The notes under the pieces: generated by a model
Databases searched by the model: none
The model's input: only the letters and a program-made list of their open reading frames with translations
What the model was told of the DNA's origin: nothing
Source: Coriobacteriia bacterium
GTDB taxonomy: Bacteria > Actinomycetota > Coriobacteriia > Anaerosomatales > SLCP01
Length of the DNA stretch: 47,314 bases
Assembly: GCA_007121015.1 (NCBI GenBank)
Contig: SKMN01000010.1
Span: 1-47,314, forward strand
Reading direction: 5' to 3'
Part shown: positions 2,576 through 23,697 of the stretch, in pieces
How the letters are laid out: each line of letters opens with the position of its first letter
Numbering within the stretch: position 1 is the stretch's first letter
Translations under genes and position numbers: made by a program

Positions 2576-2988
2576 AGGTGAAGCAGCTATCGGTGTTCAT
2601 CGAGAACAAGGCAGGTCGCGTGAGCGAGGTGACCGAGTTGCTCGGTGGGGCCGCTATCAACATCCGTGGATTTGCAGTCTCGGATACGGCAGAATACGGG
2701 ATACTGAGGCTCATCGTCGACAAGCCGGACGAGGCACTCGAAGTCTTGAAGGGCGCGGGCTTCACCGTCAAGCCGAGTGAGGTCATCTGTATCGATCTAC
2801 CCGACCAGCCAGGCGGTCTCGCGGGGGTTCTCAAGATCGTCGCCGATGCGGGGGTCAACATCGAGTATGTGTATTCGCTCGTCGCGACGTACGTCGTGCT
2901 CAACGTGGCCGACGTCGATCGCGCGGTCGGACTCCTCGCGGACCAGCCGGTACGGCTCGTGTCGCAAGAGGAGATATCGCGGTTCTGA
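2572..2988 (+). CDS. Tandem ACT-domain protein, probable amino-acid sensor
   Basis: A 138-residue soluble protein built of two ACT domains (about residues 3-66 and 71-136), with the beta-alpha-beta pattern of small-molecule-binding ACT folds and nothing else. Stand-alone double-ACT proteins are known next to iorAB and phenylacetate-CoA ligase genes in anaerobes, where an amino-acid sensing role is assumed rather than proven. ATG 2572 overlaps the iorB stop by four bases, with AGGAGGGG about 12 nt upstream. The second domain (IDLPDQPGGLAGVLKIV) has the DxPG turn that often contacts ligand. Specific ligand unknown. Confidence 0.85.
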   Translation: MKVKQLSVFIENKAGRVSEVTELLGGAAINIRGFAVSDTAEYGILRLIVDKPDEALEVLKGAGFTVKPSEVICIDLPDQPGGLAGVLKIVADAGVNIEYVYSLVATYVVLNVADVDRAVGLLADQPVRLVSQEEISRF

Positions 2989-3011
2989 CCGGCACGCACG
3001 AGGCGTGCCGG
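2989..3011 (+). other. Intercistronic stem-loop
   Basis: CCGGCACGC and GCGTGCCGG form a perfect 9-bp stem with a 5-nt loop directly after the ACT-gene stop codon. No T-tract follows, so it is unlikely to be a strong terminator. It may protect the upstream mRNA or let the binding-protein genes be expressed at a different level, a common arrangement around ABC binding-protein genes. Confidence 0.55.
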
Positions 3012-3043
3012 AGGAGCGGGAGTGTGTGAGGAGGTAGGGGCAC

Positions 3044-4252: not shown

Positions 4253-4287
4253 GCGAGATGCCACATCCAGACCTGGGAGGGATCCGG

Positions 4288-5493
4288 ATGAGCAGGAGTA
4301 TAGGAGCGCGCCTGGCTCGTGTGTTCGTATCGACTTGCATCGTCGCGCTGACGGTGCCGGTCTTCCTCGTCGGTTGTGACGGGGAGACCGGCTACGGCGA
4401 CGGTGAGACGGTGCGTATCGGTGCGGTGCTCTCGCTCTCCGGTTCCCTTGCGGGACTCGGCGAGCCGGCACGTCGTGCGATCGAGGTCGAAGTCGACCGC
4501 ATCAACGCCGACGGCGGCGTGAACGGGCGGATGGTAGAAGTGCTCTACGAGGACGACGCTAGCGACGAGGCTCGGTCGGTCGCTGCTGCGAGCCGCCTGA
4601 TCGACCAAGAAGGCGTCGTTGCCATCATCGGTGGGAGTGGGACCGGGCAGTCGATGGCGATGCGCCAGGAGATCGAGCCCGGCGCTGTCCCCCAGGTGGC
4701 CCTGGCTGGCGGCTCGATCGTGACCGACCAGTTCAGCCCGTGGGTGTTCCAGACGCCGTGGCCCAACAGGGTCGTCGTGCCGTTCACCCTCGAGAACCTG
4801 CAGGCGGCAGGCATCGAACGGCTTGCCATCATCGCCGAGTCCGGCGGCTACGGCAAGGACGGCTCGGACGTGACGAAGGATTTCGTCGACGAGTTCGGGA
4901 TCGAGATCGTCGCCGAGGAGCAGTTCAACCGGGGCGACACCGACATGACGCCACAGCTGACGAAGGTCCGCGCCGAGGCTCCCGACGCGGTCCTCATGTG
5001 GGCTGCCGGAGCCGAAGCCGCGACGATCCTTAAGAACAACGCCGCCATAGGCGGGGCTGCCCCGCTACGCTTCTTCGGAGCGCCCGGCAATGCGCGCTTA
5101 GAGTTCGTCGAGGGTGCCGGAGATGCAGCGGAAGGATTCATGTTCGCCGCGGGCCATATACTCGTCCCGGAGACGTACGGTGTGGATACCGAGGCCTACG
5201 AGGTCGCGACGAGCTTCATCGACCGGTATACGGAGCGATGGGGTGCGGGCCCCGATATATTCGCCGGTCACGCGTACGACGCGATACACATCATCGTCGA
5301 GGCGGCACGGAGATCGCCAGCGGACTTCACCCCGGGCGACCTGCGTGACGAGATCGAGGCCACGAGCGGCCTTGTCTCGGTGGGCGGCACGTTCACGTTC
5401 TCGCCGACCGACCACAACGGCATGACCGCCGACGACCTGACGATGTACGTCATCGAGAACGGTGCGTGGGCGCCTGTCGAGGAGGTCCGTTAG
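4288..5493 (+). CDS. ABC transporter substrate-binding lipoprotein, copy 2
   Basis: A 401-residue paralogue of the preceding protein, alike along its whole length (shared GAVLSLSG, GLGEP, RINADGGVNGR-type, AGHAYDA and GGTFTFSPTDHNGMT segments). The lipobox is LVGC (Cys30) after a single hydrophobic signal. I start at ATG 4288 because GGGAGG sits 7 nt before it and the signal peptide then has a normal length; an upstream in-frame start at 4234 would overlap copy 1. The two look like a tandem duplication, and differences in the ligand-facing region may broaden the range of solutes given to one shared permease. Confidence 0.9.
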   Translation: MSRSIGARLARVFVSTCIVALTVPVFLVGCDGETGYGDGETVRIGAVLSLSGSLAGLGEPARRAIEVEVDRINADGGVNGRMVEVLYEDDASDEARSVAAASRLIDQEGVVAIIGGSGTGQSMAMRQEIEPGAVPQVALAGGSIVTDQFSPWVFQTPWPNRVVVPFTLENLQAAGIERLAIIAESGGYGKDGSDVTKDFVDEFGIEIVAEEQFNRGDTDMTPQLTKVRAEAPDAVLMWAAGAEAATILKNNAAIGGAAPLRFFGAPGNARLEFVEGAGDAAEGFMFAAGHILVPETYGVDTEAYEVATSFIDRYTERWGAGPDIFAGHAYDAIHIIVEAARRSPADFTPGDLRDEIEATSGLVSVGGTFTFSPTDHNGMTADDLTMYVIENGAWAPVEEVR

Positions 5494-5497
5494 TAGC

Positions 5498-6379
5498 GTG
5501 GGCGCCGTCGAGCTGCTGCAGTTCGCACTTGCGGGTTTGAAGAACGGCGCCATCTACGCGCTCGTAGCGCTCGGCTTCACTCTCGTATATGCGGCCACCG
5601 GCGCCATCAACTTCGCACAGGGCGAGTTCTACATGCTCGGCGGGATGCTGTCGGTATGGGCGTACGCAGGTCTCGGCCTGCCGCTCCCACTCGCCGGACT
5701 CGTGGGCGTCGCGATGACCGCCCTTGTGGGTGGGGTGTTCGAACTCCTCGCGGTGCGACCCCGCAAGGACGGAGACCTGCTCGCGATCATCATCATCACG
5801 GTGGGTGGATCGATGGTGCTGTCGTCTGCTGCCCGCCATCTGTTCGGGCCGCTGGAAAAGGCGCTCCCGGCGTTCACCAGCACCGGTACGGTGTCGATAT
5901 TCGGTGCGGTGCTCGAGATACAGTCGCTGTGGATACTCGGCTTGACCACACTCGCCGTCGTAGCTTTGTGGTACCTATACAACCGCACGAGCCTCGGACG
6001 GGCGATGCGTGCGTGTGCCGTGAACCGCGATGCGGCTCGCCTCGTAGGCATCGACCCGCGGCGGATCGTCACGGTGAGCTTCATGCTCGCCGCGGCGCTC
6101 GGTGCGCTAGCTGGTCTCGCCGTCACCCCGCTGACCCAGACTGCCTTCGACGTCGGACCGTCGGTTGGCATCAAAGGGTTCGCAGCGGCGATACTCGGGG
6201 GCCTCGGCAACCCGATCGCGGCAGTCGCCGGCGGTATCGTCCTCGGGATGCTGGAGAGCATGTCCATCGCGTTCATCTCCTCGACGTACAAAGACGCCAT
6301 CGCCCTCGTGGTCCTGCTCGGCGTGCTGTTCTGGCGCCCACAGGGCATCTTCGGCGCATCGCGGCGCGAGAAGGTGTAG
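5498..6379 (+). CDS. livH: Branched-chain amino acid ABC transporter permease LivH
   Basis: An integral membrane permease of 293 residues that pairs with LivM to form the translocation channel. About eight hydrophobic segments are visible. The family segment GAIYALVALGFTLVYAATGAINFAQGEFYMLGG is near the N-terminus, and AAILGGLGNPIAAVAGGIVLGMLE, the EAA-like loop contacting the ATPases, is near the C-terminus. I start at GTG 5498: GGAGG at 5481-5485 is rather far away (12 nt), but no better in-frame start exists. It begins 4 nt after the copy-2 stop, in the middle of the operon. Confidence 0.92.
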   Translation: MGAVELLQFALAGLKNGAIYALVALGFTLVYAATGAINFAQGEFYMLGGMLSVWAYAGLGLPLPLAGLVGVAMTALVGGVFELLAVRPRKDGDLLAIIIITVGGSMVLSSAARHLFGPLEKALPAFTSTGTVSIFGAVLEIQSLWILGLTTLAVVALWYLYNRTSLGRAMRACAVNRDAARLVGIDPRRIVTVSFMLAAALGALAGLAVTPLTQTAFDVGPSVGIKGFAAAILGGLGNPIAAVAGGIVLGMLESMSIAFISSTYKDAIALVVLLGVLFWRPQGIFGASRREKV

Positions 6380-6390
6380 AGGCGATCGTG

Positions 6391-7377
6391 GTGAAGCGTC
6401 CCGACATCCGGCTCATCGCTATCGTCGCGATCGCACTCGTTGCGGTCTTCGCCCTGCCGATGTTGACATCGGAGCGCTACCTCCTTCGGGTGTTCACCTT
6501 CGTTGGGGTCAACGTCATCATCATCACGGGTATGGCGCTCCTGTTCGGATACGCGGGCCAGGTGTCCCTCGGCCATGCAGCCTTCTACGGGATCGGGGCC
6601 TATGCCTCGGCGTTCGCAGTGCTCACACTTGGCTGGCCATGGGTCGCGGGGGTCGCGCTCGCCCTCGTTCTGACGGCGGTAGGGGGACTGCTGCTCGCGC
6701 TTCCGTCATTGCGGCTCAAGGGTCATTACCTGGCGATGGCCACGCTCGGTTTCGGCGAGATCATGAAAGTCGTGTTCGTCGAAGCGCGACCTGTCACCGG
6801 TGGGCCGGACGGCCTCTCCGGCATCCCGTACCCGACCCTCGGGCCGCTCGAGTTCGACACTGCGGGCACCGCGTATTGGCTCGTGTGGGGAGTCGCGGCC
6901 GTCGCGCTCCTTCTCGCCTACAACGTGGTGCGTTCGCGCGCCGGACGCGCCATGCGGGCGCTTCATGGGTCGGAACTCGGAGCCACGGCGTGCGGCATCG
7001 ATATCACCGGGGTGAAGGTGCGCGTGTTCGTCATCTCCGCGGCTCTCGCGGGACTTGCGGGCGCGCTCTACGCCCACGTCGTCGGGTTCGTGTCTCCGTC
7101 GACCTTCTCGCTCCATGTCTCTGTGCTGCTCGTAGCCATGGCGGTCCTCGGGGGGACCGGATCGCTTGCCGGACCGGTCATCGCGACGGTGATCCTGACG
7201 CTCATTCCTTACAGCGACGCTGTGATCCCGGGGCTGTCGCGCACAGCGCTCGAGACGATCCAGGAGTGGCAGGAGGACATCTACGGCCTGACGATCATCG
7301 CCGTCATGCTGTTCGTCCCCGGTGGCATAGGCAGCCTGATCCGACGCATCTTCCCCGAGCGGGGTGATGCAGGGTGA
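6391..7377 (+). CDS. livM: Branched-chain amino acid ABC transporter permease LivM
   Basis: The second membrane permease, 328 residues with about eight to nine hydrophobic segments. LLFGYAGQVSLGHAAFYGIGAYASA is the standard LivM signature, and VAMAVLGGTGSLAGPVI is the ATPase-contact loop. Two GTG codons (6388 and 6391) could start it; GAGG at 6380-6383 is better spaced (7 nt) for 6391. The open frame continues far upstream inside livH, but that part is a shadow. It overlaps livG as GTGA. Confidence 0.92.
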   Translation: MKRPDIRLIAIVAIALVAVFALPMLTSERYLLRVFTFVGVNVIIITGMALLFGYAGQVSLGHAAFYGIGAYASAFAVLTLGWPWVAGVALALVLTAVGGLLLALPSLRLKGHYLAMATLGFGEIMKVVFVEARPVTGGPDGLSGIPYPTLGPLEFDTAGTAYWLVWGVAAVALLLAYNVVRSRAGRAMRALHGSELGATACGIDITGVKVRVFVISAALAGLAGALYAHVVGFVSPSTFSLHVSVLLVAMAVLGGTGSLAGPVIATVILTLIPYSDAVIPGLSRTALETIQEWQEDIYGLTIIAVMLFVPGGIGSLIRRIFPERGDAG

Positions 7378-8147
7378 GCCTGTTGCAGGTCAGAGGTGTG
7401 ACGAGGCGATTCGGAGGTCTGGTCGCGGTGGACGACGTGTCCTTCGACGTGCATGACGGCCAGATAAAGGCCGTCATCGGCCCGAACGGCGCGGGCAAGT
7501 CCACGCTCTTCAACGTGATGACCGCGTTCGATCGGCCCGATGCGGGCAGCGTGCTGTTCGACGGCGACGAGGTGACCGGCAAGCGGCCGCACCTTATAGT
7601 CCGTTCGGGTATTGCGCGGACCTTTCAGAACACACAGCTCTTCGAGGACATGACGGCGCGCGAGAACGTCATGGCCGGAGCTCACGCTGTCACGAAGGCC
7701 GGGTTCTTCGCTTCGGCGCTGCGTCTGCCATGGACGGTGCAAGAGGAGCGCGACGTGGCCGAGGAGGCCGCACGCCTGTTGCGTCTCGTTGGGCTCGGCG
7801 AGTGGACGAACACCCCCGCGGCCGACATGCCGCATGGGTTGAGACGCCTGCTCGAGATCGCGCGGGCGCTCGCGGCACGTCCGCGCGTGCTCTTGCTCGA
7901 CGAGCCTGCGGCTGGACTGAACATGGCGGAGACGGTTGCCCTTGCCGAGGCGCTCTATCGCATCCGTGACGAGGGGACCACCATCGTCGTCGTGGAGCAC
8001 GACATGGGTCTCGTCATGGAGGTCTCCGACGAGATCGTCGTTCTCGATCGCGGACGCAAGATCGCCGAGGGGCCGCCGCGCCTCATCCAGAAGGACCCCG
8101 TGGTGATCGCGGCCTACCTCGGGGAGGAGGAAGCCGATGAACTCTAA
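7374..8147 (+). CDS. livG: Branched-chain amino acid ABC transporter ATPase LivG
   Basis: A 257-residue ABC ATPase that powers the LivHM channel. Walker A is GPNGAGKST and Walker B is VLLLDEP. The usual LSGGQ-like signature is replaced by MPHGLRRLLEIARAL, which matches the loose signature of LivG proteins (typically LPYGxQRRLEIARAL). VVVEHDMGLVMEVSDEIVVLDRG carries the H-loop. GTG 7374 overlaps the livM stop by four bases. The stop lies inside livF (11-bp overlap), so this four-gene block is fully coupled. Confidence 0.94.
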   Translation: MSLLQVRGVTRRFGGLVAVDDVSFDVHDGQIKAVIGPNGAGKSTLFNVMTAFDRPDAGSVLFDGDEVTGKRPHLIVRSGIARTFQNTQLFEDMTARENVMAGAHAVTKAGFFASALRLPWTVQEERDVAEEAARLLRLVGLGEWTNTPAADMPHGLRRLLEIARALAARPRVLLLDEPAAGLNMAETVALAEALYRIRDEGTTIVVVEHDMGLVMEVSDEIVVLDRGRKIAEGPPRLIQKDPVVIAAYLGEEEADEL

Positions 8148-8877
8148 GTCCTCGGCAGCCCTCGACATCTCGGGACTGTCGGCCGGGTACGACAGGGTCG
8201 ACGTGTTGCGTGGGATCGACCTCACCATCGCGCCCGGCGAGATGGTCACCCTCATCGGTGCCAACGGAGCGGGGAAATCTACCCTGCTCAAGGCGGTCGT
8301 CGGGCTCGTGCCGCCAGCGGCCGGGACTGTGAGCCTATTTGGCAAGGACATCACTCGGATGTCACCCGAGCGCTCGGTGCGCGAGGGACTCGCCCTCGTC
8401 CCGGAGGGACGGATGCTGTTCGGACCGATGACGGTCGAGGAGAACCTGCGGCTCGGCGCACATACGCGCGATGCCGAGGAATTCGCCGCCGAGCGAGACC
8501 GGGCCTTCGAGCTCTTCCCGGTACTCTCCGAGCGTCGGACCCAGAGCGCAGCGACGCTCTCCGGCGGAGAACAACAGATGCTTGCGGTCGCGCGTGCGCT
8601 CATGGCACGGCCACGCATGCTCTTGCTCGACGAACCCTCTCTCGGACTGGCGCCGCGGATCATCGCCGAGATATTCGCCGCACTCGAGACCTTGCGTACG
8701 GGCGGGCTGACGATCCTGCTTGTCGAGCAGGACGCACGTCTTGCGCTCAGGCATGCGGACAGAGGGTACGTGATGCGCACGGGATCCATAGCATTGCACG
8801 GAGCGGCGGAAGAGCTGCTTGCCAACGATGACATCAGGCTCATCTATCTTGGAGCCTGGCGTGGGGAAGGGGAGTAG
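8137..8877 (+). CDS. livF: Branched-chain amino acid ABC transporter ATPase LivF
   Basis: The second ABC ATPase, 246 residues. Walker A is GANGAGKST, the signature is LSGGEQQMLAVARALM, Walker B is MLLLDEPSLGLAP, and the H-loop region is LLVEQDARLALRHADRGYVMRTG. The PEGRMLFGPMTVEENL segment is typical of LivF. ATG 8137 is preceded by GGAGGAGG and lies within the end of livG. With LivG it forms the heterodimeric motor of the transporter. Confidence 0.94.
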   Translation: MNSKSSAALDISGLSAGYDRVDVLRGIDLTIAPGEMVTLIGANGAGKSTLLKAVVGLVPPAAGTVSLFGKDITRMSPERSVREGLALVPEGRMLFGPMTVEENLRLGAHTRDAEEFAAERDRAFELFPVLSERRTQSAATLSGGEQQMLAVARALMARPRMLLLDEPSLGLAPRIIAEIFAALETLRTGGLTILLVEQDARLALRHADRGYVMRTGSIALHGAAEELLANDDIRLIYLGAWRGEGE

Positions 8878-8883
8878 CGAGCC

Positions 8884-10188
8884 ATGATCTGGAACCCCGA
8901 GTACGAGACGATGGACCGCGACGCGCTGCACGATCTGCAGCTGCGCCGGTTGCAGTCGACGGTCGCGTGGGTGCACGAGCGCGTACCGCACTATCGGGAT
9001 GCGCTCGACGAGCGGGGCGTGCGTCCGCGCGACATCAAGTCGCTCGAGGACGTTCACAAGCTCCCGTTCACCGACAAGACGGCCCTGCGGGACACCTACC
9101 CGTTCGGCCTGTTCGCCGTACCCCTCGACAAGGTGGTCCGCATCCACTCGTCCTCCGGCACGACCGGAAAGCCGATCGTGGTCGGGTACACGAAGGGTGA
9201 CATCGCGACGTGGACGGAGCTCACTGCCCGGGTCGCCTCGGCGGCGGGCGTGGTCCACACCGATCTCGTGCAGATGGCCTTCGGCTACGGCATGTTCACT
9301 GGCGGCTTCGGCATGCACTACGGTATCGAGCGCATCGGTGCGACGGTCATCCCGGCGAGCGCCGGCAACACCGAGCGACATCTCATGATGATGGCCGACT
9401 TCGGCACGACCGTACTCGTGTCCACACCGAGCTATGCTCTCTACATGGCCGAGGTCGCCGAGGAGATGGGCATCGACTTGAAGGGGTCTTCGCTGCGCCT
9501 CGGCCTGTTCGGGGCCGAGCCGTGCACGGACGCGGCGCGCCGCGAGATCGAAGAGAGACTCGGCATCGTGGCGACCGACAACTACGGGCTTTCCGAGGTC
9601 ATGGGCCCCGGCGTTTCCGGCGAGTGCGAGTGCAGGTGCGGGTTGCACATCGCCGAGGATCACTTCCTCGCCGAGGTGGTCGATCCGGCGACCGGCGAGC
9701 CGCTCGACGACGGACAGGAGGGCGAACTCGTTTTCACCTCCCTCACCAAAGAGGCGTTTCCCGTCCTGCGGTACCGGACGCGCGATCTCACCGTCCTCGA
9801 CCGCACCCCGTGCGAGTGTGGCCGGACGCTTGCGCGCATGCGCACCGTGCGCGAGCGCACCGACGACATGCTCATCATCCGCGGCGTGAATGTCTTCCCG
9901 AGTCAGATCGAAGATGTGCTCTTCAAGATCGAAGGGGTACGACCCCACTACCTCATCGTCGTCGACCGCAAGCACGGCCTCGATGACATGGAAGTACAGC
10001 TGGAAGTCGCCGAAGAGGTGTTTTCCGATATCATGGCTGACATGGTGGCGTTCACGAAGAACGTCACCGAACGGTTGCACGGGGTCCTCGGCCTCCACGT
10101 GAAAGTGACGCTTGTGGAGCCGGGTTCGATCGAACGGACCGCGGGCAAGGCCAAGCGGGTGCTCGACAAGCGGGACGGCACCTGCTGA
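8884..10188 (+). CDS. paaK: Phenylacetate-CoA ligase family enzyme
   Basis: A 434-residue adenylate-forming enzyme converting an aryl acid (phenylacetate is the reference substrate), ATP and CoA to aryl-CoA, AMP and PPi. The ATP-binding P-loop SSSGTTGKP is near residue 96. [15 protein letters not shown] (A5-like) and RYRTRDL (A7) follow, then the C-terminal swivel domain with [13 protein letters not shown] and [10 protein letters not shown] carrying the catalytic lysine. It begins 6 nt after livF. In anaerobes with IorAB it can recycle free aryl acids or run backwards to make ATP from aryl-CoA; the direction here is inference. Confidence 0.9.
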
Positions 10189-10195
10189 CCTACAC

Positions 10196-10214
10196 GCAGG
10201 CCACCGAGGCCTGC
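10196..10214 (+). other. Stem-loop after paaK
   Basis: GCAGGCC and GGCCTGC form a 7-bp stem with a 5-nt loop right after the paaK stop, followed by TTGCTG rather than a proper U-run. It may partly separate the catabolic operon from the small unassigned genes downstream. Confidence 0.4.
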
Positions 10215-10237
10215 TTGCTGAAGGGACGAGAACGCAG

Positions 10238-10798
10238 GTGATCGATGTATCCGGAGTTCCCGCATGGGCGTGGGCCGCAGGTGCGGTCTCGGCGCTCATG
10301 CTCGTCATCGCACTCACGTTCGCGGCATGGTTGACGTGGCGCCGGGCGGTTCGCCACCATTTGGTCAAGGTAGTCGGTCGCTGGGAGGGCGTGGTCGCGA
10401 GCAGGCGCACGCTCGAGGCGATCATCCGCCACCTGGCCGATGAGGACGACGCTCGCCTGACGTTCTTCGCCAAGCATCCGGAGTCGGAGGACCGTCGCGC
10501 GCTCGCCGAGACCGCGGCTCGCACCGCGATCGCAGCCGAAGAACTCGACACGATGCCGTTGCCGCGATCGTTGTGGCCGGCCGCCGAGGCGCTCGCCGAC
10601 GCAGCGTTCGTCGTCGGTGAGGAAGCAGGTAGGGTAGGGGAGTCCGGCGATACCGACACCGTGTTCACAGGACTTGCCGACATCGACCTCGAAAGAGTGG
10701 AACGTGTGTTCGAGGTAGCCGATGCTCGGGTAAGAGAAGCGTGTGAACGGTACGATCTCGACGAGGCCTCGGTGTACGGTGGAGGGTTGTACATATGA
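10238..10798 (+). CDS. Membrane-anchored protein of unknown function
   Basis: I do not recognise this 186-residue protein. One hydrophobic segment near the N-terminus (about residues 7-31, ending LTWRR) predicts a single anchor with the rest in the cytoplasm. The remainder is an alpha-helical, Ala/Glu/Arg-rich domain with LERVERVFEVADARVREACERYDLDEASVYG near the end and no catalytic motif. GTG 10238 is the most plausible start; AAGGGA lies upstream at a loose 11-nt spacing. It overlaps the next gene as ATGA, so the pair is probably co-expressed. Confidence 0.7.
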   Translation: MIDVSGVPAWAWAAGAVSALMLVIALTFAAWLTWRRAVRHHLVKVVGRWEGVVASRRTLEAIIRHLADEDDARLTFFAKHPESEDRRALAETAARTAIAAEELDTMPLPRSLWPAAEALADAAFVVGEEAGRVGESGDTDTVFTGLADIDLERVERVFEVADARVREACERYDLDEASVYGGGLYI

Positions 10799-11229
10799 CG
10801 GGTGTCCCACGGTTGGTGCGTGCAGTCGTCGGCCTGATCGCTCTTGCGGTGATCGCGTCGCTTGTGTGGGGCTGGTTCGGCGAGTACCGGGCAGAGCGGG
10901 TGCCGGAACACGAGCGCGCAGCCGAAGTGACGCCGACACCTGAACCGGTCGAGAACGGTGATGCCGAGGAAGTGACGGCCGAGGAGCCGGGGGAACCGGC
11001 GGACGAGACCCCGGAACCCACTGCGGAGACGGGTCGGACCGTCGTCGTGACCATCGAAGGCCTCAGTTTCCGCAGGGGTCCGTCCCGGGAGGCGGAGCGC
11101 ATCTCCACACTCACCCGAGGTACGCGACTCGAGTACCTCGGTACCGAGAACGGGTGGTATCGCGTACGTCACTCCGATGGCACCGAGGGATACGTGTCGG
11201 CAAGCGAGCAATACACCGAGTTGCAGTAA
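10795..11229 (+). CDS. Membrane-anchored SH3b-domain protein
   Basis: A 144-residue protein with one N-terminal membrane segment (about residues 9-28). A Pro/Glu/Thr-rich extracytoplasmic linker (residues 40-80) follows, then a bacterial SH3 (SH3b) domain from about residue 83. LSFRRGPSREAERISTLTRGTRLEYLGTENGWYRVRHSDGTEGYVS has the usual LNVRxGPS, GW and V-x-x-x-GxxGYV pattern. SH3b domains generally bind cell-wall peptides, so a wall-facing role is likely. There is no hydrolase domain. The start is coupled to the preceding membrane protein by a 4-bp overlap. Confidence 0.8.
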   Translation: MTGVPRLVRAVVGLIALAVIASLVWGWFGEYRAERVPEHERAAEVTPTPEPVENGDAEEVTAEEPGEPADETPEPTAETGRTVVVTIEGLSFRRGPSREAERISTLTRGTRLEYLGTENGWYRVRHSDGTEGYVSASEQYTELQ

Positions 11230-11264: not shown

Positions 11265-11597
11265 ATGAGCGGCATCATCGGTCAGGCGGCTGACTTCTAC
11301 CGGCTGCGCCTCACGCGCCTCGAAGAGCTCAGCGGGCTCGATTTCGAGTGGCGCGACGACATCCTGTACCGCCAACCACCTCGCTCCGACGTGCATGAGG
11401 AAGAGGTCTGGATCGTCGAGGCGGTCGAGCTCGACGATGAGGACGTCGTACGGGAGCTCGGCAGGTTCGCGACCCGGGACCACGCCGAGGACCTGCTGCA
11501 AGAGGCGCAAGAGGCCCTCGACGAGATGACACGCTCACGCTTCGAGGCAAGGTACCTGGATTCCTCGATAGGTTCGGACACCTCTGAAGCAACTTAA
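11265..11597 (+). CDS. Small acidic protein of unknown function
   Basis: A 110-residue soluble protein, strongly acidic (EEEVWIVEAVELDDEDVVRELG), with a helical C-terminal half (HAEDLLQEAQEALDEMTRSRFEARYL) and no recognisable family. ATG 11265 has GGGAGGG 3-9 nt upstream; longer in-frame starts would overlap the SH3b gene. It is the last + strand gene before the strand switch, and its TAA stop (11595-11597) lies inside the dif-like site, so its 3' end abuts the recombination site. Confidence 0.7.
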   Translation: MSGIIGQAADFYRLRLTRLEELSGLDFEWRDDILYRQPPRSDVHEEEVWIVEAVELDDEDVVRELGRFATRDHAEDLLQEAQEALDEMTRSRFEARYLDSSIGSDTSEAT

Positions 11598-11619
11598 CAT
11601 AAGATACATTATCAGACTT
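11592..11619 (-). other. dif: Chromosome dimer resolution site dif (XerC/XerD target)
   Basis: Read on the + strand, the 28 bp are ACTTAACATAA, GATACA and TTATCAGACTT. On the - strand this gives a left arm ending CTGATAA, the 6-bp centre TGTATC, and a right arm TTATGTTAAGT. The right arm has the XerD-arm core TTATGTTAA found in E. coli dif, and the whole fits the actinobacterial-type pattern with GATAAT and TTATGT-AAGT (from memory). Arm-centre-arm lengths of 11-6-11 are exactly those of dif. It lies where gene direction reverses, the place expected for the replication terminus. Confidence 0.85.
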
Positions 11620-11688
11620 ACAAGGGCCCAGGTAACTGACTTGTAGCGAGCGGGTCTCGACCAGCCAGCGCTCTCGTACGGAGACGCC

Positions 11689-11726
11689 GCAGGCCCCGGT
11701 GTGTGGCCGACACGTCCGGGGCCTGC
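11689..11726. terminator. Bidirectional hairpin terminator between convergent operons
   Basis: GCAGGCCCCGG and CCGGGGCCTGC make a perfect 11-bp outer stem, and GTGT/ACAC inside extends it around a GGCCG loop. No U-tract follows on either strand. Its position between the last + strand gene and the first - strand stop suggests a terminator for both directions. The rest of 11620-11820 holds a TACAAG/CTTGTA dyad (11619-11645) around GGGCCC and no gene. Confidence 0.65.
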
Positions 11727-11820
11727 TGTGCGAGACGATCGCTCCGCCGTGAGCGACGTCAGCCGTGGGATATGTGGCGGCATCAGTCCTTCTGTCGGGG
11801 CCTCCACGCGCCCTCAGCGG

Positions 11821-12282
11821 TCAGGGCCTGAACACGCTTCCTGCGTACGTCGTCTCGAACGCAGCACCTTCGCGGACAGCTGCGGTGATGATGTGTGCGA
11901 GTGGTGGCCTCAGGTCGATCGTCGCGAGTTCGGTGAGGTCGACGAGGTCGACTCCCTCGACACGGGGGTCTTCTGGCGCAGATGACAGCACGCCGCCCGT
12001 CACCGAGGCCTCGAACGTGATGTTGATGACGTGACGGGTGCCCGAGGGGTCGATCGTGTCGTTGACGATGAGTGGCCGTCCGATTTCCACGACGAGCCCG
12101 GTCTCCTCGGCGACCTCGCGAACGAGTGCTTCTTCGAGAGTCTCGCCCCACCCGACTCCTCCGCCGGGCAAGAGGTGGTATACATCGTCGCCCTTACGAT
12201 GGCGTACGCAGACGACCTGGCCTTCTCGGGCTATGAGCGCGGCTACGCGGACACGTGGACACTCACGAACCGGTGCTGCCAA
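11821..12282 (-). CDS. Nudix hydrolase
   Basis: A 153-residue Nudix-fold pyrophosphohydrolase for a nucleoside-diphosphate-linked substrate. The complete Nudix box GX5EX7REUXEEXGU is present, running from the G of GVGWGE to REVAEETGL, and supplies the catalytic metal ligands. The start is TTG 12282, supported by GGGGAGGG about 6 nt upstream; no ATG or GTG near the N-terminus fits. The start overlaps the dUTPase end by 20 bp. Following dut and the nrd genes, a nucleotide-pool cleaning role is plausible, but the substrate is not readable from sequence. Confidence 0.85.
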
Positions 12283-12694
12283 AACCGCCCTCCCCCCGTA
12301 CTGTCTCTTCGAGCGTGTCGACCTCGATCAACTCCGCGGAGACGACCGGCTGGACGACGAGCTGCGCGACCTTGTCGCCACGGGAGATCCGGATGGCGCT
12401 GCTAGCATCGAGGTTGATGCAGATGACCTTGATCTCGCCGCGGTAGTGGCTGTCGATGAGGCCGGGAGTGTTGACGAGGCTGAGCCCTTGCTTGATCGCG
12501 AGTCCGCTGCGCGGCTGGACGAAGCCCGCGTAGCCCTCGGGGATGGCGACGGCGATGCCCGTGGGGACGAGTACGCGTTCAAGCGGCTTGAGGGTGACGT
12601 CCTCGGCGGCGTACAGATCGAGTCCAGCGTCGCCCGTGTGGGCGTAGCGCGGGAGCGGGAGCCCCTCGTCGAGTCGTTTGATCGGCAGTCGCAC
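12263..12694 (-). CDS. dut: Deoxyuridine 5'-triphosphate nucleotidohydrolase (dUTPase)
   Basis: A trimeric dUTPase that converts dUTP to dUMP and PPi, keeping uracil out of DNA and feeding thymidylate synthesis. The 143 residues carry all five motifs in order: [35 protein letters not shown] and GEGGFGSTG. The P-loop-like motif V at the C-terminus is intact. I start at GTG 12694 ([10 protein letters not shown]) because family length is about 140-150 residues and a GTAGGA Shine-Dalgarno lies upstream. It sits just downstream of nrdG, so dNTP synthesis and clean-up are grouped. Confidence 0.94.
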
Positions 12695-12701
12695 GGGAGT
12701 C

Positions 12702-13451
12702 CTACACCCCTCTCGTCGTTGTGGGCAGGTAGCGGGAGCACTCGCTCGCTGCACGCGTGAGCGCTTCGGGCGGTACAGGAGTGACGGAAGCCGCGTCCGG
12801 ATCGAGGGTCCGGGCCGGGCGGAACTGCTGGAGGACGTACGCGTCACCCCCGGTGAGCGGCGATGCGAGCCGAGGCAGTTCATCGGAGGTGATGATCGGC
12901 GGGAACACGGTCGTGCGGAACTCGTGGCGTACACCGGAGTCGCGGACGATGTCGATGCTCTCGGCGACCATTTCGGCGGCACCGGGTAGGCCGAGCAAGT
13001 CGTACCGCTCCGGGAACGTCTTGACGTCGAGTGCGACGTACTCTACCAAGCCGTCGGCGAGTACCCTCCCGAGGACATCGGGACGCGTACCGTTGGTGTC
13101 GAGCTTGACGGGTAGCCCGCGCGTCGCAAGGTCCTCGAGCAGTCTCGGAAGTCCTGGGTCGATGGTGGGCTCGCCACCGCTGATGACGACACCGTCGATC
13201 CAGCCGCGACGTATAGCGATGTGCGAGAGCGCGCTCTGCCACATGTGAGGCGGGGCGTCTCCGGTGAGTAGTTCGGGATTGTGGCAGTACGGGCAGCGCA
13301 ACGTGCAGCCGGTGACGAATATCGTCGTGCACACCACCCCCGGCCAGTCGAGCATGCTGGTGGGGACGAACCCTGCTACCCGATCGGCCGTGCAGTCGGG
13401 GGGGCCGGCGGAGACGAGGTCCTCACGGATATCGGAGGTGGAGGTCTTCAA
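12702..13451 (-). CDS. nrdG: Anaerobic ribonucleotide reductase activating radical SAM protein
   Basis: A radical SAM activase of the NrdG type that uses a [4Fe-4S] cluster and S-adenosylmethionine to place the glycyl radical on NrdD. About 249 residues, with [12 protein letters not shown] then [13 protein letters not shown] (the CxxxCxxC cluster motif), VVISGGEPT (SAM binding), and LDTNGTRPD / [13 protein letters not shown] downstream. The start is uncertain: TTG 13451 follows the redoxin stop by 1 nt and has AGGG 4 nt before it, while GTG 13499 would overlap the redoxin gene without a ribosome-binding site. Order nrdD-redoxin-nrdG fixes its partner. Confidence 0.92.
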
Positions 13452-13452
13452 C

Positions 13453-13698
13453 TCACCCTGCCAACGACATACGGAGCGCAGAACGGGTCGGCGCAGCACC
13501 GCGCCATGCGGCTACCTCGGAACCGGTGTCGTCGAACACGAGGATCGTGGGGGTCGCGAGCACGCTGTAGTACGAGGCTTCCGCGAGTCCCTCGACACTG
13601 CCCACGTCGAACACCTCGAGCGACTCGATGCCCTCGCACGCGTGTTTCGCTGCGGGACAGCGGGGACAGTCGTCCTTCACGAAGAGCTTGATCGTCAC
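13453..13698 (-). CDS. Glutaredoxin/thioredoxin-like redoxin between nrdD and nrdG
   Basis: An 81-residue thioredoxin-fold protein with a single CPRC redox pair (residues 11-14, DDCPRCPAAK), a cis-Pro segment ATPTILVF, and the compact length of NrdH/glutaredoxin-like redoxins. GTG 13698 has GGGGGTGA upstream. It lies directly between nrdD and nrdG. Class III reductases that use a redoxin instead of formate as reductant are known, and in Methanosarcina the redoxin gene is linked to nrdD; this gene is the obvious candidate electron donor here. That assignment is inference. Confidence 0.85.
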   Translation of the reverse strand: MTIKLFVKDDCPRCPAAKHACEGIESLEVFDVGSVEGLAEASYYSVLATPTILVFDDTGSEVAAWRGAAPTRSALRMSLAG

Positions 13699-13738
13699 CG
13701 TTCACCCCCGTCGTTCGAGTTCCCGTATCGCATGCGAC

Positions 13739-15865
13739 TCAGCCGTCCTGCGCAACGGCCAGACCGGTGCGGACCCGGTCGTACAACTCCCCTACCTTGC
13801 TGCGGTTCCACGTCTGGACCTTCGAGAAGTAGCCGACGATGCGCGTGACCCCGTACACATCGAGAGAGCCGCAGTGGCTGCACTGCGGCTTGAGGCCGCG
13901 CGCGGTCTTCCGGCAGCTCTCGCACACCGTGAACTCGGGACTGAACGCGATCTGGGAGCACTGGGTGTTGCGGAACGTCTTCTCCACGAAACTCCTGATC
14001 GCCAAGGGCTCCGGTTCGTGCTCGCCGAGCCAGACGTGCACGATCGCTCCGGCTTCGATGAGCGGGTGGAAACGCGACTGCTTCTCGACCCGGTCGACGT
14101 AGTCGACGGGCGCGTCGACGGCAAGGTGGACCGAGTTGGTGTAGTAGTAATTCTGCGAGGTGAGGTCCCCCTTGACCACGTCCGAGGTCTGCTCGGGCCA
14201 GTACTTCATGTCGAGCTTGGCGAGGCGGTAGCCGGCGGACTCGGCGGGACTCTCCTCGAGCACCATGTTGAGCTCGTATCGCTCGGAGAGTTCCTTGCAC
14301 TTGAGGTTCATGGCCGAGATGACCTTCAGGCCGAACCTGAGGGCTCGGTCAGATTCGTGGAGCTGCTCGCCGGTATGGGCTTGTACGAGCTCGTTCAGGC
14401 CGAGGAGCCCGGCGAGGTACGTCAGCCGGTCCATCTTGAGGTACGGCTGCCCGTCCAGGTTCTTCGTGAGCAGGCCGAGCGGACCGGTCTCCCCGAGGTC
14501 GAAGAGCTTTTGGATGAACTCCCGTTTCTGCAGGTGGGCCTTGGCGACAAGCTCGAGCGCTCTGTTGAGTTCCATGAAGAGCGCCTGGTCGTTGCCGTTG
14601 GCCTTGTAGGCGATCCGAGGCAGGTTGATGGTGACGTTCTGCAGCGCCGAGAAGCGCATGATCTCCGGGGTCGAGGTCTCATCGAGCTGCTCCTTGCTCA
14701 ACTTGAGCTTGAGCCTGCAGCATTGGGAGATCGTGACCTCGTCACCGCGATCGAACACGAAGTACGTGATGCCCTGGGCGCTCGCGACGCGGCATGCGAG
14801 GTCGAGGAACTCCTCGTGGCCCCGTGTGCGGAAGAAGTCCTCGCTGATGTGGAGGAGCGGCTTGGGGAACACGAACGTCTTGCCGGTCGCGTCGCCCCGG
14901 AGGTAGACGTTGAACATCGCGCGCACGAACCGCTGCGCCTCGGCCTCGTACTCACGGTAGGTCTTGCCGGTGTATTGACCCCCGGGGCCGATCGCGGGCG
15001 TGTCGGCGAAGTGCCGGGGCACGTTGTAGTAGAGGTTGAAGTCGGTGAACACGACCTGGCTGCCGCGTGCACCCGCAAGCTGGTTGAACTCGAAGATGAG
15101 CATCTGAGCGAGCTGTTCGATCTCCTCGTCGCTCTTGCCTACGAGGTATGGCGCGAAGAAGATGTTGACCGCTTCCCATCCCACGGCTCCCGCGTAGTGT
15201 GCCTGGAGTGCCGATGCCATCTTGACCATGTGGCCGATGAGGACCTCGGCGTGCTTCGCCGGCTTGGAGACACTCGTGATGTTGGGGAGGTTCAGACCGT
15301 ACTTCTTGAGGTACTCGAGGCTGTGGCCGCCACAGTAGGGCCTGATGATGAAGCCGAGGTCATGGAGGTGCACGTCGCCGACGTAGTGGGCCTCGGAGAC
15401 GTCGTCGGAGAATACCCGCCTGAGCGCGAACTCTTTGAGGATCGTTTCGGCGATCGTGAGGTTGACGCTCTCCGGGTTATGGGTGGTGTTGGAGTTCTCC
15501 TTGTTGGCGTTGGTGATGATCTGCTCCACGTCCCACATCGGCAGACCGAGATGGGTGTGGCGCCGGTGTGCGAGCGTCATGCCACGCTCGAGGAGCTCGA
15601 GGTCGACGATCTCGCGGATGACTGCCGTGGTGACCGTGACGAGATTGGTGGCGTCGATGCGGTCTTCGACGGCGAGAGCGATCTCCTCGGCGACGTGCGG
15701 TGCGAGACAGGCTTCCTTGACGAGGGAGTCGGCGATCTTGGAGCGGTCCCACGCATCGATCTGTTGCTTCGAGGCGGTCGACACGAGAAGGGCGATATCC
15801 GTCGAGTCCGTTCGGGAACCGGGCGCAGTCGGCTTGATGACGTTGACGACCCGCTCCATGACCAT
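13739..15865 (-). CDS. nrdD: Anaerobic (class III) ribonucleoside-triphosphate reductase
   Basis: A glycyl-radical enzyme reducing NTPs to dNTPs without oxygen. About 708 residues. An N-terminal helical regulatory part (about 40-115) is followed by the ten-stranded barrel with HNPESVN-type, HDLGFIIRPYCGGHSL (Cys178) and TISQCCRLKL (Cys382-383). A C-terminal zinc ribbon (CESC at 648-651, CSHC at 662-665) precedes RIVGYFSK, whose Gly678 should hold the radical. ATG 15865 is my choice; TTG 15877 has a Shine-Dalgarno too close to it. It is the only ribonucleotide reductase in the window, consistent with an anaerobe. Confidence 0.94.
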   Translation of the reverse strand: MVMERVVNVIKPTAPGSRTDSTDIALLVSTASKQQIDAWDRSKIADSLVKEACLAPHVAEEIALAVEDRIDATNLVTVTTAVIREIVDLELLERGMTLAHRRHTHLGLPMWDVEQIITNANKENSNTTHNPESVNLTIAETILKEFALRRVFSDDVSEAHYVGDVHLHDLGFIIRPYCGGHSLEYLKKYGLNLPNITSVSKPAKHAEVLIGHMVKMASALQAHYAGAVGWEAVNIFFAPYLVGKSDEEIEQLAQMLIFEFNQLAGARGSQVVFTDFNLYYNVPRHFADTPAIGPGGQYTGKTYREYEAEAQRFVRAMFNVYLRGDATGKTFVFPKPLLHISEDFFRTRGHEEFLDLACRVASAQGITYFVFDRGDEVTISQCCRLKLKLSKEQLDETSTPEIMRFSALQNVTINLPRIAYKANGNDQALFMELNRALELVAKAHLQKREFIQKLFDLGETGPLGLLTKNLDGQPYLKMDRLTYLAGLLGLNELVQAHTGEQLHESDRALRFGLKVISAMNLKCKELSERYELNMVLEESPAESAGYRLAKLDMKYWPEQTSDVVKGDLTSQNYYYTNSVHLAVDAPVDYVDRVEKQSRFHPLIEAGAIVHVWLGEHEPEPLAIRSFVEKTFRNTQCSQIAFSPEFTVCESCRKTARGLKPQCSHCGSLDVYGVTRIVGYFSKVQTWNRSKVGELYDRVRTGLAVAQDG

Positions 15866-15926
15866 GCGACCACTCAACCCCTCGTGTCGGTGCGGGAGGG
15901 AGAGTCTCCCGCAGGCGAATCGTCGG

Positions 15927-16379
15927 TTATCGCTTCTTCAGTCCACGAAGCTCGTCGGTGAATTCGGCTACGTCCTCGAAGGACTTGTACACCGAGGCGA
16001 ACCTGATGTAGGCGACCTTGTCGAGCCCCTTGAGGCGTTCGAGCACCATGTCTCCGAGGACGCGCGAGTCGATCTCGTATCGGAACTCGTTGTGCAGCTC
16101 GGCCACGAGATCGTCGATCAGCTCTTCGAGCCGGTCGGTGCCGACGTTGCGTTTCGCCGTGGCGACGACGAGGCCGCGCAGAAGCTTGCCGCGGTCGAAC
16201 GGCTCAGGCGTGCCGTCCTTCTTGATGACCATGAGGGGCATCTCTTCGCGACGCTCGTACGTGGTGAAGCGCTTCTGGCATGCGAGGCACTCGCGGCGAC
16301 GACGGATCGCATCCTGTGACTCGGACACACGGGAATCGACCACCTTGGTCTCATCGTGTCCGCAGAAGGCACATCTCAT
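15927..16379 (-). CDS. nrdR: Transcriptional repressor NrdR
   Basis: An ATP/dATP-sensing repressor of ribonucleotide reductase genes. The 150 residues match the family length. An N-terminal zinc ribbon (MRCAFCGH at 1-8, then CLACQKRF around 32-39) is followed by an ATP-cone (PLMVIKKDGTPEPFDRGKLLRGL and on). The usual MRCPFC is MRCAFC here; the metal ligands are intact. It lies 61 nt upstream of nrdD in the same direction, and two NrdR boxes lie in front of nrdR, so it should repress itself and the whole nrdD-redoxin-nrdG set. Confidence 0.96.
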   Translation of the reverse strand: MRCAFCGHDETKVVDSRVSESQDAIRRRRECLACQKRFTTYERREEMPLMVIKKDGTPEPFDRGKLLRGLVVATAKRNVGTDRLEELIDDLVAELHNEFRYEIDSRVLGDMVLERLKGLDKVAYIRFASVYKSFEDVAEFTDELRGLKKR

Positions 16380-16386
16380 CGTTTCA

Positions 16387-16402
16387 CCCCTACATATTGG
16401 CT
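16387..16402 (-). promoter_or_regulatory. NrdR box, downstream member of tandem pair
   Basis: CCCCTACATATTGGCT matches 11 of 16 positions of the NrdR-box consensus ACACWATATATWGTGT (consensus from memory), with its ACATAT core exactly 31 bp from that of the better box. A spacing of three helical turns is what NrdR oligomers bind. It lies between the predicted -10 and the nrdR start. Confidence 0.65.
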
Positions 16403-16409
16403 TTGAGTG

Positions 16410-16438
16410 AGCCTAGCACACAACATATAGGGTTACAA
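16410..16438 (-). promoter_or_regulatory. Promoter of the nrdR-nrdD-nrdG operon
   Basis: On the - strand TTGTAA (16438-16433) is followed after 17 bp by TAGGCT (16415-16410), a plausible sigma-70-type pair about 30 nt before the nrdR ATG. The stronger NrdR box fills the spacer, so bound NrdR would block RNA polymerase. Confidence 0.6.
16418..16433 (-). promoter_or_regulatory. NrdR box, upstream member of tandem pair
   Basis: ACACAACATATAGGGT matches 14 of 16 positions of the NrdR-box consensus and lies between the predicted -35 and -10 of nrdR. With the copy 31 bp downstream it forms the standard tandem operator. Confidence 0.8.
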
Positions 16439-16502
16439 CGGGAATCATCGAGACTCACTCAGAAGATTGTGGGTCCGGTGCGCGACATCAGTCGGGACCT
16501 CA

Positions 16503-16889
16503 TCACCGTTGGGCCATGCCCGCCTGCTCGATCCCGGCGGGGACCAGCAGTACCTCCCCTGCGAGAATCCGTCCGACGGCGCGGTCGTTGATGGCAAGTA
16601 TCCATTCCACGTTCTGGGCTGTCGTGAGTCCCGGGGTGGGATGTGCGCGCGCAAGCGACCAGACCGTATCGCCGCTTCCGACATGGACGGCGCGTGTCTG
16701 CTCGGAAGACGTCTCTGTGGCGGGGAGGGCCCACGTGAGCGCGGCGAACGCCAACAGGAGTGCGATGAGGCCTATAGCGGCCCATTCGTACCACGCGGCG
16801 CCGCGTGTACGGAGAGCGCGCCGGTATGGAGCGGCCTCGCGCCGCCGACCCCCCTGAAGTGTCGAGCCGGTCGATGCTGTCAGGTACAT
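16503..16889 (-). CDS. LysM membrane protein, probable SOS-induced cell-division inhibitor (YneA/Rv2719c type)
   Basis: A 128-residue protein with a basic cytoplasmic N-terminus, one membrane segment (about residues 33-56) and an extracytoplasmic LysM peptidoglycan-binding domain (about 67-117, VGSGDTVWSLARAH ... LAGEVLLVPAG). Size, topology and position divergent from lexA match YneA of Bacillus and Rv2719c/ChiZ of Mycobacterium, which halt division during DNA damage; the latter also sits between nrdR and lexA. Three SOS boxes lie in the shared upstream region. GAAGGAG precedes ATG 16889 at ideal spacing. Domain call firm; function inferred from context. Confidence 0.8.
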   Translation of the reverse strand: MYLTASTGSTLQGGRRREAAPYRRALRTRGAAWYEWAAIGLIALLLAFAALTWALPATETSSEQTRAVHVGSGDTVWSLARAHPTPGLTTAQNVEWILAINDRAVGRILAGEVLLVPAGIEQAGMAQR

Positions 16890-16965
16890 GACGCTCCTTC
16901 CGCAGTCACACTGTTCGGTGTCTCGGTCGTCACCCTACCGGCGGGTTCTGACATCGGCCGAAAAA

Positions 16966-16979
16966 CGAACGTATGTTCG
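16966..16979. promoter_or_regulatory. SOS box 1 (LexA operator)
   Basis: CGAACGTATGTTCG fits the Gram-positive/actinobacterial LexA consensus CGAACRNRYGTTYG perfectly. It is closest to the LysM gene and probably controls it. Confidence 0.9.
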
Positions 16980-16994
16980 TGTGAGATCTTACAC

Positions 16995-17008
16995 CGAACA
17001 CACGTTCG
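16995..17008. promoter_or_regulatory. SOS box 2 (LexA operator)
   Basis: CGAACACACGTTCG fits the LexA consensus perfectly and is identical to the box in front of recA in this window. Its centre is 29 bp from box 1 and lies between the divergent genes. Confidence 0.9.
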
Positions 17009-17035
17009 TTCGCAAGTGTGGCGTATTCCAGTGGA

Positions 17036-17049
17036 CGAACGCATGTTTG
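17036..17049. promoter_or_regulatory. SOS box 3 (LexA operator)
   Basis: CGAACGCATGTTTG fits the LexA consensus perfectly and overlaps the predicted -35 of lexA, so it should mediate LexA autorepression. A further near-match, CGAACATGCTTTCG (17082-17095), breaks the GTT and is doubtful. Confidence 0.88.
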
Positions 17050-17076
17050 CCACCCACGATCGGAGTGCGCTAGACT
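17047..17076 (+). promoter_or_regulatory. lexA promoter
   Basis: TTGCCA (17047-17052), an 18-bp spacer and TAGACT (17071-17076) form a plausible promoter about 37 nt upstream of the lexA ATG. The -35 shares bases with SOS box 3. Confidence 0.6.
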
Positions 17077-17113
17077 CTGGGCGAACATGCTTTCGGTCAC
17101 GAAGGGGGACCCG

Positions 17114-17740
17114 ATGCCCTACACGCGCGAGCTAACCGACAGGCAGCGGCAGATCCTGGACTTCATCAAGTCCGAGATCCACCGCCGCGGGTTCCCGCCC
17201 TCCGTGCGCGAGATCGGTGACGCGGTGGGGCTCTCTTCCTCTTCTACCGTCCATTCGCACCTTGCCGCGCTCGAGGGGAAGGGTTTCATCCGCCGCGACC
17301 CTTCGAAGCCGCGCGCTCTGGAGGTGTTCGACTATCGCGACGCGGATCGGGCGGTCGACTACGGACAGGCTAGAGCGGTGCCACTCGTGGGTCAGGTGGC
17401 CGCTGGCTCCCCCATCCTTGCCGCCGAGAACATCGAAGCGACCCTCACCCTTCCCGCCGAGATGGCTGATGAGTCCACCTTCGTCCTCAGAGTCCGCGGT
17501 GACTCGATGATCGACGCGGGGATCCTCGACGGCGACTACGTCGTCGTGCGCCAGCAGTCGACCGCCGAGAACGGGGATGTCGTGGTCGCTATGCTCGATG
17601 ACGAGGCCACCGTCAAGCGGTTCTTCAGGGAGGCCGACACGATACGGCTCCAGCCTGAGAACAGCGCGCTCGAACCCACTTTCACGCGAGACGTGACGGT
17701 GCTCGGCAAGGTCATGGCGCTCTTCAGGCGTATCGTCTAG
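17114..17740 (+). CDS. lexA: LexA repressor
   Basis: The SOS-response repressor and self-cleaving protease, 208 residues. An N-terminal winged helix (about 1-68, [24 protein letters not shown]) binds SOS boxes. The cleavage site is Ala97-Gly98 in VGQVAAGSP. The catalytic pair is Ser131 ([10 protein letters not shown]) and Lys168 (ATVKRF). I start at ATG 17114 with GAAGGGGGA 4 nt before it; an ATG at 17018 would run through the promoter and operator. It is the only gene right of the dif site on the + strand. RecA, its co-protease, lies at 30039-31070. Confidence 0.97.
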
Positions 17741-17758
17741 GCGGGCGCCGCGCCCGCC
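17740..17758. terminator. Hairpin between convergent lexA and hflX
   Basis: GGCGGGCG and CGCCCGCC form a perfect 8-bp stem with a 3-nt CCG loop. It fills the whole 19-bp gap between the lexA and hflX stop codons. It lacks a clear U-tract but is placed to end both transcripts. Confidence 0.65.
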
Positions 17759-17759
17759 G

Positions 17760-19094
17760 TCATTCCTCCCCGGCCGGGGTGCCGGGGGCGCTCGACGAAG
17801 GAGCGGTCTCGAACTCGCTCAATCGGCTGGCGACCTCCGACGACGCCTGCACGACGAGGCGGGTCCCCTCCCCGGTGTGGTGCTCGCTGACCACATGCGC
17901 GCGCTCGTGCGCCAGTTGTACGAGGTCGCCGCGAGTGTAGGGCACGAGAGCAGTGAGCGTGCGTCCCCCCCGCGTCGCCTCGCGCGAGAGGCGTTCGAGC
18001 AATGTTTCGACGCCCTCGCCCGTGAGCGCGGAGACGAATACCGCGTCCGGGTGGCGGGCGGCAAGCCGGTCGCGTTCCTCGGACTCGAGCGCATCCACCT
18101 TGTTGAAGACGAGGAGTGAGGGCAGGCCCGTTGCGCCGACCTCTTCGAGAACGAGGTCGACAGCCGACATCTGCGGGTGGGCAAGCGGGTGGCTCGCGTC
18201 GACGACGTGGAGCAGGAGGTCGGCACCTGTGACCTCGGCGAGCGTGGACTTGAATGCCTCTACCAGTCCGTGCGGCAGCTTGTTGATGAAGCCGACGGTG
18301 TCGGTGAGGGTGACCTCGCGGCCGTCACCGAGGACGAGCCGGCGGGTGGTCGAATCGAGCGTTGCGAAGAGCATGTCGTAGGAGAGCGCGTCGGCCCCGG
18401 TCAGCGTGTTGAGCAGCGTCGACTTGCCGGCATTGGTATAGCCGACGAGGGCGACACGGAACACTCCACTCTGAGCGCGTGACTTGCGTTGCGTCTCACG
18501 TGCCGAGGCCACGTCGGCAAGCTCGCGCTTGAGGTCCGCGATCCGTCGTCTCGCGAGCCTGCGGTCGGTCTCGAGCTGTGACTCTCCCGCCCCGAACCGG
18601 GCTCCCCTGCCGCCGCCGAGGCGCTCGCGCTCGAGATGTCCCCACAGGCCGCGCAAGCGTGGTAGCAGGTACTCGAGTTGAGCAAGCTCGACCTGGAGTT
18701 TACCTTCACGGCTGACCGCGTGCATCGCGAAGATGTCGAGGATGAGGGTCGTGCGGTCCATGATCCGGACCTTCGGGATCATGGACTCGAGGTTCGCCTG
18801 TTGCCGGGGGCTGAGGTCGTCGTCGAACACGACGATCGACGCTTCGGTCTCTGCGGCACGCGCGGCGATCTCCTCGGCCTTGCCCGATCCGATGAACGTG
18901 CGCGGGTTGACCTTGTCGAGACGCTGTGTGGCTACGGCGACGGGTTCGATGTCTGCGGTCCGCGCGAGCAGCTTGAGCTCCGCGAGGGAGTCTTCGAGGG
19001 GCCACTCGCCCGGTCCCCGATCGACCCCGACGAGCACGGCGCGGGGCCGGGAGTCATCGCGCTCCCACTCCGGCGGCCTGTTGCGTCCGCTCAT
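17760..19094 (-). CDS. hflX: Ribosome-associated GTPase HflX
   Basis: A 444-residue GTPase that binds the 50S subunit and splits or rescues stalled ribosomes under stress. An N-terminal HflX domain (about 17-205, with NPRTFIGSGKAEEI and GGRGARFGAGESQLETDRR) precedes the G domain: G1 GYTNAGKST (218-226), G3 DTVGF, G4 NKVD and G5 SALTG. A Ser/Pro-rich C-terminal tail is non-conserved. It is the last gene of the long miaB-miaA-dapF-dapL run, 13 nt after dapL, and converges on lexA. The linkage of hflX to miaA and lexA is common in Gram-positive genomes. Confidence 0.95.
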   Translation of the reverse strand: MSGRNRPPEWERDDSRPRAVLVGVDRGPGEWPLEDSLAELKLLARTADIEPVAVATQRLDKVNPRTFIGSGKAEEIAARAAETEASIVVFDDDLSPRQQANLESMIPKVRIMDRTTLILDIFAMHAVSREGKLQVELAQLEYLLPRLRGLWGHLERERLGGGRGARFGAGESQLETDRRLARRRIADLKRELADVASARETQRKSRAQSGVFRVALVGYTNAGKSTLLNTLTGADALSYDMLFATLDSTTRRLVLGDGREVTLTDTVGFINKLPHGLVEAFKSTLAEVTGADLLLHVVDASHPLAHPQMSAVDLVLEEVGATGLPSLLVFNKVDALESEERDRLAARHPDAVFVSALTGEGVETLLERLSREATRGGRTLTALVPYTRGDLVQLAHERAHVVSEHHTGEGTRLVVQASSEVASRLSEFETAPSSSAPGTPAGEE

Positions 19095-19107
19095 CGCGAC
19101 ACCTCTC

Positions 19108-20277: not shown

Positions 20278-20303
20278 CCCCTTCGGATCGGTGACGTGCG
20301 GTC

Positions 20304-20330
20304 GGTGCGCCCGGGTCGTCGGGTCGCACC
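20304..20330 (-). other. Stem-loop in the dapF-dapL gap
   Basis: GGTGCG/CGCACC plus CCCG/CGGG stack into a 10-bp stem with one bulged base and a 6-nt loop, 27 nt upstream of the dapL start. No T-tract follows. It could be an mRNA processing or partial termination structure. I see no lysine-riboswitch or T-box pattern here. A TAACAT hexamer at 20349-20344 (- strand) is a weak -10 candidate for dapL. Confidence 0.4.
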
Positions 20331-23665: not shown

Positions 23666-23697
23666 GGCTGACCTCCTCCGGCGCGACTCAGGGACAG

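Follow-up and report, generated by a model that had tools for sequence, protein, structure and literature searches.

The chromosomal dif sites of Escherichia coli and Bacillus subtilis are 28 bp long with an 11-6-11 division, occur as a single copy in the terminus half of the chromosome, and depend on two recombinases (XerC/XerD or CodV/RipX) and on FtsK-family translocases with the FtsK gamma domain; the site described here is alike in all of these respects. Single dif sites near the terminus have been predicted with profiles in bacteria including the Actinobacteria, and dif and the shift points of GC skew were found to be strongly correlated (Kono et al., 2011, PMC3025954). The skew itself has been explained by fork collision or fork traps, not by a stop at dif (Kono et al., 2012, PMC3317982). 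In a later survey the mean distance between the skew switch and dif was about 13 kb, asymmetric chromosomes included, while replication ended opposite oriC even where the skew switched at dif, and a skew switch at dif in asymmetric chromosomes was said to need a special mechanism (Bhowmik et al., 2018, PMC6199493). The asymmetric chromosome of Pseudomonas aeruginosa PAO1-UW from the same study resembles the present case in that dif lies off the point opposite oriC, so that the end of replication and dimer resolution would be spatially separate. A literature search for Coriobacteriia together with “dif site” found no paper; with the present analysis, dif is documented in an uncultured, Coriobacteriia-like order.

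The dif site and its neighborhood

The window, the whole stretch of 47,314 bp that was analyzed, is an entire contig (C71) of a draft genome of 1,944,108 bp in 85 contigs that is 98% complete. The minus strand of 11592-11619 splits 11-6-11, and its sequence is exactly as the preliminary description gave it (Table 1). Its core, ATAATGTAT-C-TTATGTTAA, presumably equals that of E. coli dif except for one base. A 19-bp core has one match in the window at up to three mismatches, against none in 100 shuffled sequences, and a 22-mer has a single match in the draft genome at up to three mismatches in 22, in keeping with one copy per chromosome as far as an 85-contig draft represents it. We also built a 28-column dif profile from the sites of 28 relatives, with the source genome and its congener excluded. 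The two 11-bp arms and the 6-bp center fit this profile, the site scoring 52.1 bits and the next best position in the window -0.4; across 3.9 million scanned positions the best non-site reached 10.3 bits, and the true dif was the top-scoring position in every contig scanned. The expectation that this would be the only full dif match in the genome was thus borne out.

Table 1. Coordinates, strands and supporting evidence for dif and its surroundings in the window.
Feature	Position	Strand	Basis or remark
dif site, 28 bp, AAGTCTGATAATGTATCTTATGTTAAGT	11592..11619	-	sequence read, pattern searches, alignment of relatives, profile
Left (XerC-type) half-site, AAGTCTGATAA	11609..11619	-	XerC assignment by analogy with E. 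coli dif
Central 6 bp, TGTATC	11603..11608	-	6-bp spacer as in dif (PMC5357621)
Right (XerD-type) half-site, TTATGTTAAGT	11592..11602	-	XerD assignment by analogy
Left-side genes (ior, liv transporter, AMP-binding ligase, SH3), all toward dif	108..11229	+	leading-type composition
Conserved 110-aa ORF of unknown function beside dif	11265..11597	+	orthologue beside dif in 10 relatives
Strong hairpin separating dif from the convergent genes	11680..11731	.	fold z-score -4.8 for 11665-11740
NUDIX hydrolase, the gene nearest dif on the right, toward dif	11821..12282	-	PF00293
Right-side housekeeping cluster (dut, nrdG, nrdD, nrdR, hflX, miaA, miaB, rny, recA, rimO, ftsK, rnjA, dapA, pnp), toward dif	11821..46780	-	lagging-type four-fold composition
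lexA, sole right-side gene pointing away from dif	17018..17740	+	PF00717, PF01726; + in all 10 relatives
ftsK, DNA translocase with gamma domain	36219..38474	-	24.6 kb from dif; sole FtsK_gamma found in genome

The core recurs at up to three mismatches in 30 of the 41 genomes of the order, almost always as one copy, and a looser pattern adds four more (G012, G019, G031 and G037). Many Coriobacteriia are among the further matches of the pattern, which makes an uncultured, Coriobacteriia-like order the probable lineage. When the relatives were aligned on the core, conservation spanned the 28 bp and ended at the block edges, with divergent flanks, and the GATAA of the left half-site was kept. The gene order around the site, running from ior/liv through the AMP-binding ligase, the SH3 gene and the 110-aa ORF to dif, and onward through nudix, dut, nrdG, nrdD, nrdR, lexA, hflX, recA, ftsK and pnp, is retained with local exceptions in ten relatives, so that the proposed alignment with the dif of relatives yielded both a conserved block and a neighborhood shared across the order. 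Judged from sequence, 11592-11619 is very probably a bona fide XerC/XerD chromosomal dif, a confidence that covers the identity of the site; that a dif is present is beyond practical doubt, and the site is unremarkable as dif sites go.

The gene orientation pivots at dif itself. As the preliminary description had noted, the well-supported genes left of the site all lie on the plus strand and those to its right on the minus strand, lexA excepted. Orientation flips at dif in all 11 genomes compared, with 86-99% of genes pointing toward it (590 of 676 on the left and 923 of 982 on the right when all contigs are pooled, as called with a crude gene caller). The gene gap holding dif is the best orientation split in 10 of the 11; in the window the best split falls 0.4 kb away, beside a spurious ORF. 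Three minority-strand ORFs (6706-7116, 11169-11510 and 43324-43758) were rejected as spurious, each overlapping a family-supported or conserved gene on the opposite strand. The 110-aa ORF, for which a Pfam search found no family above cut-off, has its TAA stop (11595-11597) inside the right arm of dif; the stop falls within the arm in this genome and its congener, and in the other genomes 27-115 bp separate the end of the gene from dif. The hairpin on the other side of dif is a possible shared bidirectional transcription terminator, a function assigned from its fold and position. Neither an Rfam scan nor a tRNA scan of the window gave a hit.

Recombination machinery

Both recombinases appear to be encoded in the genome. 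XerD scores above its curated cut-off in a profile search, and a XerC-like partner scores 314, below the XerC equivalog cut-off of 335 but above that for tyrosine recombinases in general. A fourth, shorter tyrosine recombinase accompanies these two and an integron integrase. The latter (G000:C79:90698-91288, locus L219; TIGR02249, 467 bits against a cut-off of 265) shares a contig with dnaA, at a distance of about 33 kb. An FtsK with a gamma domain is encoded within the window. If dimers are resolved as in E. coli and B. subtilis, XerD and its XerC-like partner would bind the two 11-bp arms, septal FtsK would pump DNA, pair the sister copies of dif and activate XerD, and an exchange of strands about the 6-bp center would then convert a chromosome dimer to monomers. 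In most genomes the KOPS words GGGNAGGG and GAGAAGGG are polarized toward dif from left and right, with some anagrams polarized more strongly; their polarity is not distinguishable from that of other G-rich words and may have its source in gene orientation.

Strand composition relative to dif

A cumulative GC-skew extremum had been expected near 11.6 kb. There is no skew inflection in the window: left and right of dif alike the skew is positive, and the cumulative curve climbs throughout. A missing inflection had been named beforehand as grounds for rejecting the site; it is indeed missing, but the skew switch is a correlate and not a defining property of dif, and the identity of the site is not thereby refuted. 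In relatives the switch is present and displaced. The clearest case is G019, a single contig of 1,838,614 bp whose closure is assumed, and no second single-contig genome was found among 40 genomes of the order. With dif at 693 kb and dnaA at 1,465 kb, the two lie on opposite sides of the G019 chromosome, and it is from this genome, the source genome being fragmented, that dif is placed in the terminus half opposite oriC. Origin genes close by would have spoken against the site; in the source genome dnaA is on another contig. The arms between the two loci measure 772 and 1,066 kb, which sets the point opposite dnaA 147 kb (8% of the chromosome) away from dif, in the direction that is rightward in the window. 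The total GC skew of G019 flips sharply at dnaA, steps down from 0.08 to 0.03 at dif, is near zero for about 120 kb and becomes negative from about +120 kb. Intergenic skew is likewise about zero between dif and +120 kb, which fits replication from both sides as well as it fits a single displaced switch.

Four-fold degenerate sites were used to separate the effects of gene orientation from those of fork direction. In G019, left-side genes pointing toward dif have values near 0 and the few pointing away -0.12 to -0.20, while right-side genes pointing toward dif have values of about -0.12 up to 100 kb and +0.03 to +0.11 from 150 kb. A change-point model with a free fork-direction switch, in which gene orientation was modeled as well, placed the switch at +135 kb (bootstrap 5-95%, 120 to 145 kb), with an R2 of 0.38 as against 0.05 when the switch was forced at dif. 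The fitted switch lies at +90 kb in G002, +75 kb in G022 and +95 kb in G024, so that in most relatives it falls about +75 to +135 kb right of dif. In most draft contigs, those of G036 and the window included, the fit reaches or nearly reaches the limit of the available sequence and is best taken as a lower bound, which for the window is at least the right end of the contig (+36 kb). The displaced switch is thus shown in the relatives, and the window is consistent with it. The preliminary description had read the locus as a single chromosomal dif, far from dnaA, at which both gene orientation and forks converge; all of this is supported except the convergence of the forks, which probably do not usually meet at dif. 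Its further proposal that the right-side genes are co-oriented with the converging forks is doubtful, as their four-fold sites resemble those of lagging-strand genes.

In one relative, G009, the switch is displaced to the left, at -33 kb or further, which suggests a fork-meeting point left of dif. Contig G009:C26 (L272-L281) has the same dif neighborhood, but its strand composition is the reverse of that in the other relatives compared. This genome served for an orthologue control, in which reciprocal-best pairs on the same side and strand were compared between lineages at four-fold sites. Right-side orthologues average -0.31 in the window against -0.03 in G009 (n = 21, p = 1e-6) and -0.25 in G002 against -0.03 in G009 (n = 73, p = 8e-13), and left-side orthologues +0.06 in G019 against -0.15 in G009 (n = 33, p = 2e-8). 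Because the same orthologues differ between lineages, composition is not inherent in the genes themselves, and gene-intrinsic codon usage is unlikely to be its source.

Proposed displacement of fork meeting and separation of two signals

Read from strand composition, the forks in this family and in most of the relatives compared would meet tens to more than 100 kb to the right of dif, a displacement that, taken alone, we consider somewhat more probable than not. Replication would probably end by fork collision opposite oriC, without a stop at dif, and the fork of the shorter arm would run through dif into the recA-ftsK side. Fork meeting opposite oriC is the likely cause of the displaced switch, as judged from one single-contig genome, G019, where the fitted switch (+135 kb) and the point opposite dnaA (+147 kb) are close, an agreement that represents one case in the order. 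We tentatively suggest a fuller scheme, nearly as plausible as not, in which gene orientation is organized around dif (perhaps through FtsK travel toward dif), composition follows fork collision opposite oriC, and transcription in the approximately 100 kb between is head-on to most forks. The dif site marks dimer resolution and the pivot of gene orientation, but probably not the usual meeting place of the forks.

Forks could instead meet at dif, with the switch masked by a preference of the right-side housekeeping genes for C-ending codons. Many genes on the right are conserved and probably well expressed, and the third-position skew of the coding strand is negative overall, yet the signal is absent from the same orthologues in G009, the intergenic DNA on the right of most genomes likewise has a skew of zero or above, and genes of unchanged orientation in G019 shift their composition at +125 to +150 kb, all of which makes this explanation quite improbable. 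It also seems unlikely, if somewhat less so, that the dif neighborhood was relocated, or one arm extended, in an ancestral lineage and that the composition is a relaxing relic of an older fork-meeting point. In G009 the local gene order is unchanged and the switch lies on the other side of dif, so the offset can vary between lineages, as such a history would have it; the rightward displacement, however, is common to several families, and the G019 switch agrees with where the point opposite dnaA lies today, a match not required of a relic. A third alternative concerns the site itself, since mobile elements that use XerCD carry dif-like attachment sites (PMC5357621). Against such an origin stand the single copy, the housekeeping neighbors on the right, the finding of no phage or integrase gene beside dif, and a neighborhood shared with ten relatives, and the conserved synteny refutes it for practical purposes, leaving it a vanishingly small probability.

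Displaced fork meeting opposite oriC, if true, means that two signals that coincide in most genomes are separated in this order. The displaced switch is more useful than the dif site itself, as the clade allows fork direction, gene orientation and dif-directed processes to be told apart. The pattern agrees with fork collision and breaks the rule that skew follows dif. Compared with E. coli and B. subtilis, the composition switch here is displaced from dif, and the clade departs from the correlation between dif and skew described by Kono et al. (2011, PMC3025954). The offset in G019, at 8% of the chromosome, exceeds the 5% threshold for asymmetry of PMC6199493; in PAO1-UW and the chromosomes of that survey the GC skew nevertheless switches at dif, whereas here composition switches near the point opposite dnaA.
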